A program made the position numbers and the translations under genes. From NCBI GenBank assembly GCA_030429835.1, contig JAUIGC010000001.1, positions 60,082-124,081 on the forward strand: a stretch of 64,000 nucleotides of DNA, written 5' to 3'. Below the pieces are notes generated by a model. That model searched no databases, was not told the DNA's origin, and worked only from the letters and a program-made list of their open reading frames with translations. This DNA comes from Bacteroidia bacterium (lineage in GTDB: Bacteria; Bacteroidota; Bacteroidia; Flavobacteriales; Flavobacteriaceae). Within the stretch, counting starts at the first letter, position 1. Each line of letters begins with the position of its first letter. Positions 43,385 through 51,501 of this stretch are shown here, one piece after another.

Positions 43385-44998
43385 TTAATTGGCTCCTACA
43401 ATTTCAAACAATTCCTTGTCCAGCTGTGGTTTTACCTTACAGGTTACGTCAAAATGCATCGTGGCCGTATTCCTTTCATTGTATGCAGGCCATTCTGGTA
43501 AGCTCGCCGCGTTGGGATTCCCCGTCTTGGCAAAATTAATCCAGGCACTACTCATTTTATCGGCCAATTGATGGGCCTCCTCGCCTCCTCCAGTCATTTG
43601 ATTGGCCAAATCCACCGTATCAAACACAAATGGTAATTCCATACAATGCAAGGCCTTATATTTCCCATTAAAGACTGGGGACTGCCAGGTAAACAGATAC
43701 ATATAGACATCCGCCCCGTCATTTAAAGCGGATTTTTCGTTCGCCTGTACCACGGCTCCCGGTCTAAACATGGTATCCACATCCAAAAAATCTTTGGGGT
43801 CCGTATCGTTGGGATATGCTTTTTTTACGGCCTTTATATAGGCATCGGCATTTTCCTTATACCGTTCCTTAATCTGTTTCATAATATCTTCTTCAGAAGC
43901 ATTTACCAATTGCATCGTGGTGAAAGGTGCAAATTCGTTTTTTACTGTTCCAATCAATAACGGTATATCTTTGGACATTTTTAAGGCCTCGTTGGAATTT
44001 ACCTGATATGGTAAATCCGTTCCGTCCAGGCTAGGGCCCCAACTAAGACCAAATCCTATAGCAGGTTTGCCTGCAGCCCGCATTTTTTCAGCTGTAATTC
44101 TTAAAGCCTTGCTACTTGCTTCGGACAATACTTCAAAAGGAATATCCTGAATGCTATCTACGGAAGCTTCATCCAACCCTAGAATGGATAGTGTTTCTGA
44201 CGCTATAGCCTGAGTATCCTCTTTTTCCAAAATGGCACTTCTAAAAGATCCGCTCTGATTGATGGCTTTGTGGAACAAACCCTCGGCCTTAGGCATGGCC
44301 ATTAAGGTATTTACCTTGGCCCCACCACCGGATTGGCCAAAAATGGTCACATTATTTGGATCACCCCCAAAATTGGCAATGTTGTCCCTGACCCATTCCA
44401 AGGCCAAAACAATATCCAACATTCCGTTGTTGGCAGAATGACTGTATTTATCACCGTAGGCAGATAGGTCCAAGAACCCTAAAACGTTTAATCGATGATT
44501 AATGGACACAACGACCACATCTCCTTTTTTGCTCAAATTTTCACCATCATAAGACGGTAACTCGTGACTTGATCCCGAAGTGAAACCTCCCCCATGAATC
44601 CAAAACATCACGGGTCTTTTTTTATTGTCCGATATACTTGGTGTCCAAACATTCAAACTTAAACAGTCCTCATTGGTATATCCCCAATCATGGTCAAAAA
44701 CAAATTCCACCTCATCATTGACCGTAGTTGTTGGCGTTAATAAAGGAGCTACTGGTCCGTACATTGTAGAACTACGAATACCCTCCCATGGTTCTGGTTT
44801 TACAGCGGTCTCAAATCTTTCCGCCTTACCGTAAGGAATTCCCTTATACGTGAAAATATCGTTTTTAATATAGCCACGGACCTTTCCATTATTGGTGTTT
44901 GTAACCGCCACATCCATTCCGGTCTTCACCTCTTGCGCCTCCATGGAAATGGAAACGGATAATAGAAGTAGGCAAATTTTAAAAGTTAGTTTTTTCAT
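43385..44998 (-). CDS. Secreted type-B carboxylesterase (copy 1)
   Basis: The 537-aa protein has a signal peptide (KLTFKICLLLLSVSISMEAQ). The alpha/beta-hydrolase core has NTNNGKVRGY, FTYKGIPYGKAERF, EDCLSLNVWTP, the oxyanion loop WIHGGGFTSGSS and the nucleophile elbow FGQSGGGAK (Ser223). A late ALHCMELPFVFDT segment holds the probable catalytic His. It hydrolyses carboxylic esters, most likely in the periplasm. It is the last gene of a minus-strand cluster with an alditol-oxidase-like protein 14 nt upstream. A related esterase lies at 49870, under a candidate shared operator. Confidence 0.94.
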   Translation of the reverse strand: MKKLTFKICLLLLSVSISMEAQEVKTGMDVAVTNTNNGKVRGYIKNDIFTYKGIPYGKAERFETAVKPEPWEGIRSSTMYGPVAPLLTPTTTVNDEVEFVFDHDWGYTNEDCLSLNVWTPSISDNKKRPVMFWIHGGGFTSGSSHELPSYDGENLSKKGDVVVVSINHRLNVLGFLDLSAYGDKYSHSANNGMLDIVLALEWVRDNIANFGGDPNNVTIFGQSGGGAKVNTLMAMPKAEGLFHKAINQSGSFRSAILEKEDTQAIASETLSILGLDEASVDSIQDIPFEVLSEASSKALRITAEKMRAAGKPAIGFGLSWGPSLDGTDLPYQVNSNEALKMSKDIPLLIGTVKNEFAPFTTMQLVNASEEDIMKQIKERYKENADAYIKAVKKAYPNDTDPKDFLDVDTMFRPGAVVQANEKSALNDGADVYMYLFTWQSPVFNGKYKALHCMELPFVFDTVDLANQMTGGGEEAHQLADKMSSAWINFAKTGNPNAASLPEWPAYNERNTATMHFDVTCKVKPQLDKELFEIVGAN

Positions 44999-45012
44999 TG
45001 TTTCAATATTTT

Positions 45013-46383
45013 TTAGGCTTGATATAAATTCTTATTCAAATAATCATTTTTGAATTTTCCATCGGGATCGTGCTTTTTCGCCAAAGCTAGAAAATCCGTA
45101 AACTTGCTATATCTTGAGGACAACACCTTAGGATCAACGTTAAAGATTTTACCCCAATGCGGCCTGAACTGAAAAGGTTCCAGCTCTTCTTCTATCATAG
45201 TTACTAAAGCTCCAACTTCCTCAGGGTTTTGTTTCCATGTGAAATGGATTGCAACACAATCCTCCTGATAACAAGGGCTCATCCAATAATCATCTGCCGC
45301 TATCGTACGTATTTCGGTAATCATTAATTGCGGAGAAATTAGGTCCCTCTTTTTTTCCAAGGCCAATATGGCATCAAGTGCTTGATCTTTGGGAACAAAA
45401 AATTCCGATTGTAATTCCTCTCCACTACTGGGCGTAAAACCCATTTTAAAATGTGGCAACCTATCATACCAAGGTCCGGGAACACCCATTTGGTCCGTGC
45501 AGTTCACGGCGGACAGTTCCGTAATGGGATGTAGGTTTCTTGTCGCCGCCTTGGCACCAAAATAGTCGTCGCCCAAATCCTTTACTTCTTCATCAGTCCT
45601 TCTTTTCACCCATACCTGACTGATTTTTTGATCTTGCCAATCGGTAAAAAGACTTACACTATAACCACCCGATAAGATGTCATTAAAATTTTCCTTCAGA
45701 GATTCCAAGGGAAGTTCCTGAAAAACATCCTGCCGAACATCAAATGTCTTTTGGATATCCAAGGTCATTTTGGTGATAATCCCCAAAGCTCCGAGGTTTA
45801 CCACAGCACCATTAAAGGCTTCATCTCCCCTTTTTAACACTATAATTTCTCCATTGCCGTTTACCAATTCAATGGCAGCAACACCTGTAGCCAAATTTCC
45901 ATTTTTGACCCCGGAACCATGGGTTGCCGTTGCACAGGCTCCCGCAACCGATATATGGGGAAGAGAGGCCAAATTGTGCAAGGCATACCCCCTTTCATGT
46001 AACTCCGGAGCAAAATCGCCATACTTGGCACCCGCACCCACTGTCACGGTCATGTTTTCCTCATCCACACCCAAAACTCCATTCAAATGCTGCGTTGAAA
46101 TTTGGTTCATGGGGCTATCCGCAATATTATTGAAGCAATGCTTAGACCCCAGTGCCTTTTGGGCTTCCAATTCCTTGATCAACTCTTGGACTTCCTCGGC
46201 CGTTTTTGGTTCATATAGGTTCTTTGCCTTATAGGTATAATTCCCCGCCCAATTCTTCCGAACAGGTTCCAGAGGCAAATCTTCCGACATTTTCTTTTTG
46301 TCCAGTTTACATGAAGCCAAAGGATTTATCGTGGTGGCCGCCGCAAACGCTGCGGTGGTCTTTAAGAAGGTTTTACGTTTCAT
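45013..46383 (-). CDS. Alditol/xylitol oxidase-like FAD-binding protein
   Basis: The 456-aa protein starts with a Tat-like leader (KRKTFLKTTAAFAAATTI; Lys-Arg instead of Arg-Arg) that runs into a possible lipobox (PLASC). The FAD-binding domain has ALGSKHCFNNIADS, in which the histidine matches the covalent FAD site of alditol oxidases, and LHNLASLPHISVAGACATATHGSG, a segment very like bacterial alditol oxidase. The C-terminal domain has HFTWKQNPEEV and FRPHWGKIF, as in the aldonolactone oxidase family. It probably oxidises a polyol or sugar alcohol outside the cytoplasm. It lies 9 nt after the isomerase-like gene. Confidence 0.9.
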   Translation of the reverse strand: MKRKTFLKTTAAFAAATTINPLASCKLDKKKMSEDLPLEPVRKNWAGNYTYKAKNLYEPKTAEEVQELIKELEAQKALGSKHCFNNIADSPMNQISTQHLNGVLGVDEENMTVTVGAGAKYGDFAPELHERGYALHNLASLPHISVAGACATATHGSGVKNGNLATGVAAIELVNGNGEIIVLKRGDEAFNGAVVNLGALGIITKMTLDIQKTFDVRQDVFQELPLESLKENFNDILSGGYSVSLFTDWQDQKISQVWVKRRTDEEVKDLGDDYFGAKAATRNLHPITELSAVNCTDQMGVPGPWYDRLPHFKMGFTPSSGEELQSEFFVPKDQALDAILALEKKRDLISPQLMITEIRTIAADDYWMSPCYQEDCVAIHFTWKQNPEEVGALVTMIEEELEPFQFRPHWGKIFNVDPKVLSSRYSKFTDFLALAKKHDPDGKFKNDYLNKNLYQA

Positions 46384-46391
46384 ACTAGGAA

Positions 46392-47315
46392 TTATTGAAA
46401 TCCAATTTTCTTTAATCCCTCATGACTAATTTTAATTGCTTCCAAAGGTTTCATTCCGTCAAAGGTCATATCCTGCTCCACCATGTAATACTCCATTCCC
46501 GAAAGCTCTTTCTTCTCTAAAATCCTACCAAAATCTATGGTTCCTTGGCCCACTGGAGCAAATCTTCCTTGATCATCCATATCCTTCACATGCCAAAGTT
46601 TAAAACGACCAGGATACTTTTCAAAGTAGGCCACAGGATCTGCACCAGCCTTGGTCACCCAATACAGATCCATTTGAAAGTTAACATTGTCAGGATTGCA
46701 GTTTTCCAGTAAATAGTCTATCATGACCACATCATCATCTCCTTTTTTAAATTCAAAATCGTGATTATGGTATAATAATTTAAGACCCGCTTTACTTGCC
46801 TTCTCACCTAGGGTGTCCAAAATTTCGGCAAGTTCCTTGGCCGTTCCCTTCATGCCCATGGTCCTTTCTTCCGGATTAAAAGTGAACATCCCCATAGGAG
46901 GAACAGGTACTACAAAATATTCAAACCCCGCTGCCTTAACGTCTGCCATCATCTGATCGGCATTTTCCAATGTAACACTCGATTGATGTGTGCTTATAGG
47001 GGTGAGCCCTACCTCGGATAAGTAGGCTTTAAAATCCGCAGGGGTCATGTTATAGAATTTACCATCTGCATAACCTGCAGCCTCAATGTTTTCATATCCC
47101 GCATCCGCAACGGCCTTAAGGGTTGCTTTGGCATCGGTTCCCATATCATCGCGCACGGTATATAGCGCCAATCCCCCAAAATCCTCAACTTCCTCAACCA
47201 TGGTTTCGGGAGTTTCCATGGTTTCATTAGTTTTATCGGCCTTCCCTTTACAGGATAACATCAGTCCTATTGAAGCCAGTATAAATCCGTTTAAAATTAT
47301 TTTTTTCATGTTCAA
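46392..47315 (-). CDS. Sugar isomerase/epimerase-like TIM-barrel lipoprotein
   Basis: The 307-aa protein has a lipoprotein signal (LNGFILASIGLMLSC, then KGKAD). The barrel has LALYTVRDDMG, AGYENIEAAGYADG, PISTHQSSV, LLYHNHDFEF, VNFQMDLYWVTKAGADP and LWHVKDMD, the same metal-site pattern as in 18882-19718, with which it is homologous. The alternative start two codons downstream (MKK) is plausible. It is the first gene of the run 47315 to 43385 and may act on the product of the oxidase downstream of it. Its membrane anchor places it in the periplasm. Confidence 0.88.
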   Translation of the reverse strand: MNMKKIILNGFILASIGLMLSCKGKADKTNETMETPETMVEEVEDFGGLALYTVRDDMGTDAKATLKAVADAGYENIEAAGYADGKFYNMTPADFKAYLSEVGLTPISTHQSSVTLENADQMMADVKAAGFEYFVVPVPPMGMFTFNPEERTMGMKGTAKELAEILDTLGEKASKAGLKLLYHNHDFEFKKGDDDVVMIDYLLENCNPDNVNFQMDLYWVTKAGADPVAYFEKYPGRFKLWHVKDMDDQGRFAPVGQGTIDFGRILEKKELSGMEYYMVEQDMTFDGMKPLEAIKISHEGLKKIGFQ

Positions 47316-47359
47316 GTTGTTTTTATTATTTATCGATCCAAGTTTAAAAATTCACTTAT

Positions 47360-48067
47360 TTATTTAAAACTATATAGATAGGGTGCCTTGTGGGCTTTTC
47401 CCTGAAATAGTTTTTCATGTCTAACCAAAATGTCCAAGGAAAGCATTTTTCTTTGAAATGTTGTACGCCGCAGTTTTTCTCCCAATATTGCTTCGTATAC
47501 CTGTTGCAACTGTTTCATCGTAAACTTAACGGGCAAAAGATTCATGCCTACCAGTTTTCTTTCCAAATTTTGACGGAGGACTTCCAGTGCTTTATCCACC
47601 ATTTCCCTATGGTCCATCATCAAGGGTGGAAGCTCATCTATGGAATACCAATTAATACTGTCCGATAATTCATCGGGTTTTAGCTTAACATTTTCATAAT
47701 TGATCAAAGCATAGTACCCAATGGAAATAAACCTTCCCAACATCCAACCATATTCATTTGTATCAAGGTTGTTTTCAGTCAGAATTTTTTTCATGATCGC
47801 CGAATCCGACCTTGTAAGACTTCCAAAGGTATAGAACTGCTCTAGGTAGATATCTTTTAAACCAGTACGCTGACTAACGCCATTCTTAACCGCATCATCC
47901 AGACTTTCATCCATTTTGACAAATCCACCTGGAAGCGCAAAATATCCTGTATTGTGATATTCCAAAACCAATATTTTAAGTTGGCTACCATTAAATCCGA
48001 AAATAACGGAATCATATGATACATTCTGAATATAATCCCGTTTTTCTGACGTACTCATCAATTTCAA
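47360..48067 (-). CDS. NUDIX-domain transcriptional regulator (NrtR/AraR-like) with degenerate NUDIX box
   Basis: The 235-aa protein joins an N-terminal NUDIX fold (residues about 15-145, with LKILVLEYHNTGYFALPGGFVKMDESL) to a C-terminal winged helix (FTMKQLQQVYEAILGEKLRRTTFQRKMLSLDIL). The catalytic REx2E(E) core is missing: the helix reads DDAVKNGVSQRTGL. So it should bind a ligand without hydrolysing it, as in sugar-responsive NUDIX regulators of Bacteroidota. Codon 4 (ATG at 48058) is an alternative start. A 23-bp inverted repeat lies 57 nt upstream and a near-identical one precedes the esterase at 49870, which suggests autoregulation and local control. Confidence 0.9.
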   Translation of the reverse strand: MKLMSTSEKRDYIQNVSYDSVIFGFNGSQLKILVLEYHNTGYFALPGGFVKMDESLDDAVKNGVSQRTGLKDIYLEQFYTFGSLTRSDSAIMKKILTENNLDTNEYGWMLGRFISIGYYALINYENVKLKPDELSDSINWYSIDELPPLMMDHREMVDKALEVLRQNLERKLVGMNLLPVKFTMKQLQQVYEAILGEKLRRTTFQRKMLSLDILVRHEKLFQGKAHKAPYLYSFK

Positions 48068-48402
48068 TGGTTTAAAAATCCCAATATATCAAATAACGTA
48101 CAAAACGAATAGAAAACAAAGTATTATTGTAACAAAATGAGACAATAGTTTTTAATTTTTGCCGCTTAGCTACCTACATGTTTTAAATTTAATCTTCCAT
48201 AAAATCAATCCCTTTGTTACTCTCCCAATGATCCTAGACAAGTAGAAATATATTAGTTAGAACACGATAGCTATTTAATTGCGAATTCTTCCAAGTATAC
48301 AATTGACATGCAAGACCCATTGGTCCATTAATTATATTCTCAATACCTCTTTAAAAATTCTATTTAAAAAAACACGTACCTTTTATTCCCAAATAAAAAA
48401 AT
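48068..48402. other. Divergent regulatory region between regulator and hydroxy-acid oxidase
   Basis: This 335-nt gene-free stretch holds operator candidate 1 near its left end. The rest is AT-rich, and I see no gene or hairpin in it. Confidence 0.55.
48125..48147. promoter_or_regulatory. Candidate NUDIX-regulator operator 1
   Basis: TATTGT-N11-ACAATA forms a 23-bp inverted repeat. The 11-nt centre and several flanking bases are also shared with operator 2 (22 of 23 positions identical). It lies 57 nt before the regulator start and about 255 nt before the hydroxy-acid oxidase start. Confidence 0.75.
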
Positions 48403-49551
48403 ATGTCCAAAAATTTTGATTCCAACTATCCCTCCGTAGATGATCTAAGAAACAAGGCTAAGTCTAGGATGCCAAGATTTGCCTTTGAATATTTGGACGG
48501 GGGCTGTAACGAGGATGTAAGTTTGGCGCTAAATACAAGCGATATTAGAAAGGTTCAGCTAGAACCCAGATACCTTCAAAACTATGGCACAAGTTCCACC
48601 AAAACAAAAGTGCTGGGTATGGAGTTCGATGCGCCTTTTGGTATTGCCCCTGTTGGATTGCAAGGGTTGATGTGGCCCAACTCCCCAGCCATACTCGCCA
48701 AGGCCGCATTTAAACATAATATCCCCTTCATTTTAAGCACGGTAACCACCATGAATATTGAAAGGGCGAGTGAACTAACCGAAGGGAATGCCTGGTTTCA
48801 ATTGTACAATCCAGTTGATGATGGCATCAGGGACGACATCATTAACAGGGCACAAGCGGCCGGATGTCCCGTTTTGGTACTACTTTGTGATGTTCCTACG
48901 TTCGGGTTCAGACCGCGGGATTTTAAAAACGGATTGGCCCTGCCGCCAAAAATGTCCATCACCAACATCCTTCAAATTCTGGGAAAACCCACATGGGCAT
49001 TTAATACGCTGAAGTACGGTCAACCTACCTTTGAAAACTTAAAACCCTATACCCCAGAAGGACTTAACCTAAAGCAATTGGGAGCCTTTATGGACAAGAC
49101 ATTTTCAGGTAGACTAAATGCCGAGCGAATAAAACCGATCCGGGACAAATGGAAAGGAAAACTGGTATTGAAAGGTGTGGCCTCCGAACGGGACACTCAG
49201 GATGCCATTAAAATGGGCTTTGACGGAATCATCCTTTCCAATCACGGCGGCAGACAATTGGATGCCGCCCAATCCACTATCGGCACTTTACAGGACATTG
49301 CTGGAAAATACGGTGACCAAATCGAAATTATGCTAGATAGCGGACTACGTTCAGGACCGGACATTGCAAGGGTCATAGCTAGCGGAGCAAAATTCACCTT
49401 TATGGGACGTTCCTTTATGTACGGTGTGGGTGCACTCGGGGCCAAAGGAGGAGACCATACCATTGGCATGCTCAAAACCCAATTTCAACAGGTAATGGAC
49501 CAATTATGTTGCGAAAAAGTTGAGGATTTACCAAAGCACTTGATAAAATAG
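48403..49551 (+). CDS. FMN-dependent alpha-hydroxy-acid oxidase/dehydrogenase (LldD/glycolate-oxidase family)
   Basis: The 382-aa length and motifs fit the family: FEYLDGGCNEDVSLALN at the N-terminus, FGIAPVGLQGLMWP and PFILSTVTTMNIE for FMN contacts, LVLKGVASERD with the catalytic lysine, and ILSNHGGRQLDAA with the active-site histidine and arginine. IEIMLDSGLRSGPDIARVIASGAKFTFMGRSFMYG binds the FMN phosphate. It oxidises L-lactate, glycolate or similar 2-hydroxy acids to keto acids. There is no signal peptide and it is likely cytoplasmic. It sits between the two operator candidates and may use the hydroxy acid released by the esterases. Confidence 0.94.
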   Translation: MSKNFDSNYPSVDDLRNKAKSRMPRFAFEYLDGGCNEDVSLALNTSDIRKVQLEPRYLQNYGTSSTKTKVLGMEFDAPFGIAPVGLQGLMWPNSPAILAKAAFKHNIPFILSTVTTMNIERASELTEGNAWFQLYNPVDDGIRDDIINRAQAAGCPVLVLLCDVPTFGFRPRDFKNGLALPPKMSITNILQILGKPTWAFNTLKYGQPTFENLKPYTPEGLNLKQLGAFMDKTFSGRLNAERIKPIRDKWKGKLVLKGVASERDTQDAIKMGFDGIILSNHGGRQLDAAQSTIGTLQDIAGKYGDQIEIMLDSGLRSGPDIARVIASGAKFTFMGRSFMYGVGALGAKGGDHTIGMLKTQFQQVMDQLCCEKVEDLPKHLIK

Positions 49552-49869
49552 AATGTAGGACGCCATTTATAAAATTACCGGGTCCGGTTGAGCCGTCGTA
49601 TAGTGTAAAATCGGGTGGCGGGATACAATTGTATTTAAGTACGTTCACTTAAAGAAACTACTTGCTGCTCTGAATTCGACAATAGGCTTTTTAAAAAAAT
49701 CAGATTCAATATTCTATTAGAAATAAACAGGCATTCCTCCCTATTTATCATTTTGAACACATCTATATTGCCAAAACATCCTTTTCAATCGATATTTTTC
49801 ATAATTATCATATGAATTTAGGATAATCGATGTATTATTGTAACAAATTGAGACAATAAAACTCTGAAA
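49552..49869. other. Intergenic region holding the second operator
   Basis: This 318-nt gap between the hydroxy-acid oxidase and the second esterase holds operator candidate 2 just before the esterase start. I see no terminator hairpin and no gene. Confidence 0.55.
49836..49858. promoter_or_regulatory. Candidate NUDIX-regulator operator 2
   Basis: This is the same TATTGT-N11-ACAATA inverted repeat as at 48125-48147, with one difference in the centre. It ends 11 nt before the esterase start codon, a place where binding would block transcription or ribosome access. Confidence 0.75.
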
Positions 49870-51501
49870 ATGAAATTACATATCTTTCCACTTTTGATGG
49901 TAGTTGCATCCATAAATTTCATTATGGCCCAAGAAACAAACTCATTTCCTGTACAGGTTAGGATAGAAAACGGAATTATTGAGGGGAATTACGATACACA
50001 TACCGGAATACAGCGCTATTTTGGGATACCCTTCGCCAAGCCTCCCGTTGGAGAATTACGCTGGAAGGCTCCACAACCCCTTGAAAATTGGGATGGTGTT
50101 AAAGAAACAAAGGCCTTTGGGCCACGACCTATGCAAACGATGGTCTTTGGGGATATGAAATCCCGATCCAGCGGCGTAAGCGAGGATTGTCTTTACTTGA
50201 ATGTTTGGACACCGGCCAAAAGGAACACCAAAGACCTTCCGGTACTGGTATATTTCTTTGGGGGCGGTAATGTAGCTGGAGATGCATCGGAACCAAGATA
50301 TGACGGAGAGAGCATGGCTAAAAAAGGGATTGTAGTAGTCACTACAAATTACCGCTTGAACATATTTGGGTTCCTGGCCCATCCTGAGCTTAGTGCAGAG
50401 GCCGACTACAAGGCCTCCGGGAATTATGGTCTTTTAGATCAAAATGCGGCCTTAAAATGGGTCAAGAACAATATAGCCGCGTTTGGCGGAGACCCCAACC
50501 ATGTGACCATAGCTGGCGAATCTGCGGGTTCCATAGGAGTTAGCCAGCAAATGGCTTCTCCCTTGTCCAAAGATTTAATTGCCGGTGCCATTGGCGAAAG
50601 CGGGGCAGGAATACATCCCACCATGGCACCTGTTTCCTTAGAAGAGGCAGAAAAAATAGGTGCGGAATTTGCCCAAAAAATTGGTTATCCTACCCTAGCG
50701 GAATTAAGAAATCTAAGTACCCGAGAGGTATATGAGTTATATAATGAAAGTCAAAGATTTGGTTTTCCGGCGGTACTTGACGGGTATTTTCTTCCTAAAA
50801 CATTGCCTGAGATATTCCAAAACAGAGAACAAGCCATGGTTCCCCTACTATTGGGATGGAACTCCGCAGAGATTCCTGGAATGGCATTTACACAAGGGCC
50901 GTACACCTCCGAAAACTATGCGAGCAAGGTAAAAGAGGCTTATCCGAAGGAATACAAAAAGGTAATGGAACTTTATCCTAGCGGTTCGGAGAAAGAAATC
51001 GAACTTTCCGCCACGGCTTTGGCTTCAGACCGATTTATTGCGTACAGCACATGGAAATGGTTTGATTTACACAGAAAAAATAGCGACCAGCCAGTATACC
51101 GTTACTTATATAGCAAACTTAGACCACCATTGGTGGACAATACAAAGTCAAGTGGTTTGGCAGGCGGTACCGTAGAAAAAGGTGAAGATGCCCCACCAGC
51201 CCCGAAACCTGTAGGAGCTCCCCACGCCTGTGAAATTGAATACTGTATGGGCAACCTGCACTTAGTAGACGACTATGCTTGGACGGCAGAAGACTATAAG
51301 GTTTCAGCCGATATGCAAAATTACTTTGCCAACTTCATAAAGATGGGTAATCCTAATGGTGAGGGACTACCCCAGTGGGATTCCGCTGCCGAAATGGGCG
51401 ATACCCCACCAGTAATGGTCATTGACACCCAAAGCAAATTGATCAAAGCTACAAACGACGCCCGTTACGAATTTCTTGATAAGGCTTACGGCCATAATTA
51501 A
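49870..51501 (+). CDS. Secreted type-B carboxylesterase (copy 2)
   Basis: The 543-aa protein has a signal peptide (LHIFPLLMVVASINFIMAQ). Core motifs are YFGIPFAKPPVGELRWK, EDCLYLNVWTP, YFFGGGNVAGDAS in place of the usual HGGG oxyanion loop (histidine replaced by phenylalanine), and the nucleophile elbow IAGESAGSIGVS (Ser218). The loss of the oxyanion-loop histidine may alter activity, although the glycines remain. The catalytic His is probably in GAPHACEIEY. It resembles the first esterase (43385) in plan, but the two are well diverged. It lies directly behind operator 2 and ends with a terminator. Confidence 0.93.
   Translation: MKLHIFPLLMVVASINFIMAQETNSFPVQVRIENGIIEGNYDTHTGIQRYFGIPFAKPPVGELRWKAPQPLENWDGVKETKAFGPRPMQTMVFGDMKSRSSGVSEDCLYLNVWTPAKRNTKDLPVLVYFFGGGNVAGDASEPRYDGESMAKKGIVVVTTNYRLNIFGFLAHPELSAEADYKASGNYGLLDQNAALKWVKNNIAAFGGDPNHVTIAGESAGSIGVSQQMASPLSKDLIAGAIGESGAGIHPTMAPVSLEEAEKIGAEFAQKIGYPTLAELRNLSTREVYELYNESQRFGFPAVLDGYFLPKTLPEIFQNREQAMVPLLLGWNSAEIPGMAFTQGPYTSENYASKVKEAYPKEYKKVMELYPSGSEKEIELSATALASDRFIAYSTWKWFDLHRKNSDQPVYRYLYSKLRPPLVDNTKSSGLAGGTVEKGEDAPPAPKPVGAPHACEIEYCMGNLHLVDDYAWTAEDYKVSADMQNYFANFIKMGNPNGEGLPQWDSAAEMGDTPPVMVIDTQSKLIKATNDARYEFLDKAYGHN

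Follow-up and report, generated by a model that had tools for sequence, protein, structure and literature searches.

A conserved 23-bp palindrome as the predicted operator of an NrtR/AraR-like regulator and of secreted esterase genes in a marine Maribacter

Regulators of the NrtR family combine a Nudix-like domain with a winged helix and carry a degenerate form of the Nudix motif (REUXEE), and the characterised members are described as repressors that are released by a small ligand (PMC4666351). AraR from Bacteroides thetaiotaomicron (BT0354; PDB 5bs6, 5dd4, 5ddg, 5deq) binds DNA in its apo form and is released by L-arabinose (PMC4666351). XylR from Bacteroides (BT0791), a family member with a pentose/hemicellulose context, controls xylRBAE (PMC3878776). 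NrtR from Shewanella oneidensis (PDB 3gz5) has the same domain architecture, acts in NAD metabolism, and has ADP-ribose as its ligand. Here we analysed a 64,000-nucleotide stretch of DNA (the window) from the genome of a marine Maribacter that is ~83% complete. The window encodes a regulator of this type (47360-48058, minus strand) and contains two 23-bp palindromes that, on sequence grounds, are almost certainly docking sites for this adjacent NUDIX-domain protein.

The regulator is 232 residues long, with an inactive Nudix domain and an NrtR winged helix. It matches the Pfam families NrtR_WHD (1e-18; 67.6 bits, cutoff 27), NUDIX (24.7 bits, cutoff 21.1), and AraR_C, and its best match in the PDB is AraR (5bs6, 1.5e-37). 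Its Nudix catalytic segment reads NGVSQR in place of REUXEE. With its domain architecture, degenerate motif, and a palindromic operator beside its own and its target genes, the protein displays traits of the NrtR family, and it shares with XylR both this family and an origin in the Bacteroidetes. However, it differs from AraR in several respects. The sequence identity is low, the arabinose-ligand residue Arg34 is replaced by Tyr and the loop that follows is three residues shorter, with Arg86 and His131 kept, and the clade of the regulator has an insertion of ~15 residues before the RFISI segment. The recognition helix reads R-R-T-T-F-Q-R rather than D-K-R-N-F-R-K, with K179, R180, N181, and K184 of AraR replaced by R, T, T, and R, respectively. 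The genome also encodes a separate AraR-like paralogue on another contig (C88), and it is this paralogue that adjoins the araA/araB-type L-arabinose genes; therefore, the regulator in the window is not the arabinose regulator. A role as an NAD-type NrtR that binds ADP-ribose is not indicated either, with a score of 89.7 bits for the NCBIfam NtrR model, far below its cutoff of 400 bits. The distinction from XylR is drawn from the target genes, as no xylose isomerase or xylulokinase gene with a site was found in the source genome. These sequence features place the regulator in a separate NrtR/AraR-like clade whose Nudix box is dead. A search of openly licensed papers yielded no account of this clade or of its operator, and this group of sugar-type NrtR proteins from marine Bacteroidetes is apparently undescribed.

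Operator 1, TATTGTAACAAAATGAGACAATA, is located at 48125-48147, 66 nt 5' of the likely regulator ATG at 48058 on the minus strand, and operator 2, TATTGTAACAAATTGAGACAATA, is located at 49836-49858 and ends 11 nt 5' of an esterase ATG at 49870 (neither palindrome is assigned a strand). They share all but one of their 23 positions. The initial annotation had described a pair of 23-mers identical at 22 positions, with the second copy 11 nt before 49870, and both its coordinates and its count are correct. Within the window, TATTGT-N11-ACAATA matches exactly at these two places only. Beginning 4 nt after operator 1 is a probable promoter for the regulator (48065-48124, minus strand) consisting of TTTG, 19 nt, and [T/G]TTATTTG, putative elements that we take to be of the Bacteroidetes -33/-7 type. 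The promoter columns are conserved in regulator orthologues, and a search of the window with a strict Bacteroidetes promoter consensus gave matches at chance level. The operators resemble that of AraR in being imperfect palindromes with GT/AC at -7,-6/+6,+7, and G-7 and T-6 share the register of the operator in the AraR crystal structure. Residue 179, which contacts G7 in AraR, remains basic in the regulator (Lys to Arg). Sugar-use genes are the targets of AraR and the predicted targets here, but the operator core and the targets themselves differ.

Conservation of the site follows the regulator clade closely. We compared 39 loci encoding orthologues with at least 64% identity to the regulator, from Maribacter, Zobellia, Eudoraea, Pareuzebyella, Cerina, Muriicola, Pricia, Emticicia, and unclassified Bacteroidetes, with 41 loci encoding paralogues with 35-43% identity. 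Of the 39 orthologous loci, 35 have a site with at most two mismatches 67-94 nt 5' of the regulator (at most one mismatch in 33, and two in the other two); the remaining four lack a good site. The regulator-linked site extends to Zobellia, Eudoraea, and Emticicia, the last of these from another order, and it persists before the orthologues as an isolated island between flanks that diverge. In contrast, none of the 41 paralogue loci has the site, with the best match having four mismatches, as in shuffled sequence. Five Maribacter genomes that lack an orthologue contain no intergenic site except for one match (G006); in those relatives that were examined, a match of this form falls within a coding frame. 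This pattern supports the proposals in the initial annotation that the palindrome is a shared operator of the NUDIX regulator and that the regulator would control its own gene.

A genome-wide scan, suggested at the outset as a check, gave a result that depends on how the motif is defined. With the 12 fixed bases and at most one mismatch, the source genome has 44 matches compared with 19 for a reversed control, and among five exact matches two (C6, C212) lack the inner bases; this weakly specific motif was therefore dropped as a genome-wide marker. Regulator-linked sites have internal CA...TG bases in common, which gives the refined core TATTGTnnCAnnnTGnnACAATA. With at most one mismatch, this core has four matches in the source genome compared with none for the reversed control, and 60 compared with one in 36 Maribacter genomes. 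Because the core yields four genomic matches against none, the pair in the window is well beyond chance. Matches to TATTGTnGAAAAnTGnTACAATA in several genomes were discarded, as they lie within a coding frame in all three loci examined (L115-L117), and TATTGTnGAAAAnTGTTACAATA is a false positive of the operator motif that recurs within a coding frame in the same Maribacter loci, L115-L117.

The regulator gene is followed on the same strand by genes for a sugar isomerase/epimerase-like TIM-barrel lipoprotein (46392-47309, minus strand; Pfam AP_endonuc_2, PDB 8tcd), an FAD-linked oxidase of the alditol (xylitol) oxidase type (45013-46383, minus strand; Pfam FAD_binding_4 and ALO, PDB 8ot8 and the xylitol oxidase 2vfr), and, last in the operon in the window, the secreted carboxylesterase EST2 (43385-44998, minus strand; Pfam COesterase, 5.6e-100). 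These downstream genes are the most conserved partner set of the regulator. The TIM-barrel gene adjoins the regulator in nearly all relatives, and a GH3 glycosidase is often added to the operon; a search for relatives of the TIM-barrel protein in the literature found nothing useful. In Maribacter litopenaei (L049, L114), the oxidase, EST2, and EST genes of the locus appear split into several frames.

The second target, EST (49870-51501, plus strand; Pfam COesterase, 4e-110), is a secreted carboxylesterase with operator 2 in front of it. The genus has 17 EST orthologues, spread over 16 genomes, and each of them is preceded by the site (17/17), yet the gene is far from the regulator in most of these genomes, which upholds the earlier suggestion that the regulator would control it. 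A single site from which the regulator and esterase genes diverge is seen in Eudoraea, Pricia, Emticicia, a Flavobacteriaceae isolate, and a distant MAG, and this arrangement seems to be the ancestral one; in the window, a hydroxy-acid oxidase gene sits between the two, and each has its own copy of the site. Elsewhere in the source genome, contig C55 has a second divergent regulator/esterase pair, 65% and 72% identical to the window proteins, respectively, separated by a perfect palindrome with a perfect core match. Conservation backs two weaker sites: CATTGTAACAAATTGAGACAATC, which precedes a fused two-domain esterase (C156), is present in 5 of 5 genomes with the gene, and TATTGTCTCAATTTGAGACTTTA, 182 nt 5' of the listed start of a CE1-type esterase (C311), has the same form in six genomes. 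We therefore predict with good confidence a regulon comprising the regulator operon (43385-48058), the esterase at 49870, the C55 pair, and the C156 and C311 esterases. Compared with the small regulon of regulator, oxidase, and esterase proposed initially, this set retains the regulator and esterase, loses the oxidase, and adds the operon partners and the C55, C156, and C311 genes. In most relatives with a displaced esterase, a nucleoside-hydrolase-like gene diverges from it (L095-L102), and in Cerina litoralis (L140) a relative of this gene lies 3' of the regulator.

The excluded gene encodes an FMN-dependent L-2-hydroxy-acid oxidase (48403-49551, plus strand; Pfam FMN_dh) and lies between operators 1 and 2. 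Its control by the regulator, as the initial annotation proposed, would be consistent with the position of operator 1 in the shared intergenic region and with its adjoining the esterase in several relatives. However, the distance from the site to the oxidase ATG varies from 102 to 357 nt among relatives, and conservation is limited to the ~35 nt immediately 5' of the ATG, which in the window lie about 200 nt from operator 1. In five relatives where the oxidase gene is displaced from the regulator, no site better than five mismatches was found before it, and the gene opposite the regulator varies among relatives (esterase, GH67, CE1 esterase, GH2, or none). From these comparisons, control of the oxidase is improbable, and the gene probably lies outside the regulon.

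How the sites would act can be considered in light of their positions. In the favoured model, a dimer of the NrtR/AraR-family regulator would bind the 23-bp sites and obstruct the promoter or transcription initiation, until a sugar-type ligand enters the inactive Nudix domain and releases it. Repression is favoured because, at most esterases, only 8-40 nt separate the site from the start codon. A protein bound there would obstruct transcription, and the position is too far downstream for activation; the characterised NrtR-family members are also described as repressors (PMC4666351). The direction of control is less certain at the regulator promoter, where 4 nt separate the end of the site from the presumed -33 element, in a location that activators also use. 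The same protein acting on the same operators as an activator, or activating its operon and repressing the esterases, is an unlikely alternative. The near identity of 27 bp around both window sites might instead suggest a mobile or duplicated repeat, or sites that belong to another transcription factor, but the close co-occurrence with the regulator clade, the narrow spacing, and the survival of the site amid diverging flanks make this very improbable. Weighing against the favoured model are the altered recognition helix (R180T and N181T relative to AraR), the four orthologous loci with no good site, and the 182-nt distance at the C311 esterase. We consider it likely that the sites are operators through which the regulator would act as a ligand-responsive repressor of its own operon, the 49870 esterase, the C55 pair, and the two further esterases.

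In the source genome, every firmly supported transcription unit of the regulon includes a secreted esterase. The regulon probably serves the breakdown of plant or algal polysaccharide, and its products could remove esters and side chains from an acylated, possibly glucuronoxylan-like, substrate. The link to xylan comes from GH67 and GH3 neighbours in relatives, such as Pricia, where GH67 is 3' of the esterase and co-directional. This reading is a weak one, as most GH67 genes in Maribacter lack the site; GH67 was dropped as a general regulon member, with the site present only where the gene diverges from the regulator (G012), and no GH67 was found in the ~83% complete source genome. A pentose or a uronic-acid-related sugar, suggested by the GH67, GH3, and esterase context, is thus a weak guess for the ligand. 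More speculatively, we propose a distinct NrtR-family clade dedicated to secreted esterases, in which the ligand would be a product of de-esterification, or of the TIM-barrel protein and alditol-type oxidase of the operon, and two paralogous regulators would read one operator. The analysis provides a testable operator code and a list of predicted targets for sugar-type NrtR proteins of an apparently undescribed clade in marine Bacteroidetes, and it brings scattered secreted esterases together in one predicted regulon that offers a handle on their substrates.

Several other sites and neighbours were seen in the genus. The site-like sequence TATTGACACATCTTGAGACAATA is ~275 nt before a SusC/SusD pair in the source genome (C43; L110:5878-5900) and at two further loci (L109, L111). 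This SusC-associated site, which has a defective half and occurs in three Maribacter species (C43, G007, G005), is a possible member of the regulon. In four Maribacter species (L133, L137, L141, L147), a GH2 beta-galactosidase-like gene of ~1260 aa is divergent from the regulator. A related palindrome, TATTGTTACAATATGTAACCATA, occurs in two Maribacter genomes (L118:6776-6798; G035:C65:61905), and in the first of these it lies 71 nt 5' of an asparagine-synthase-like gene.
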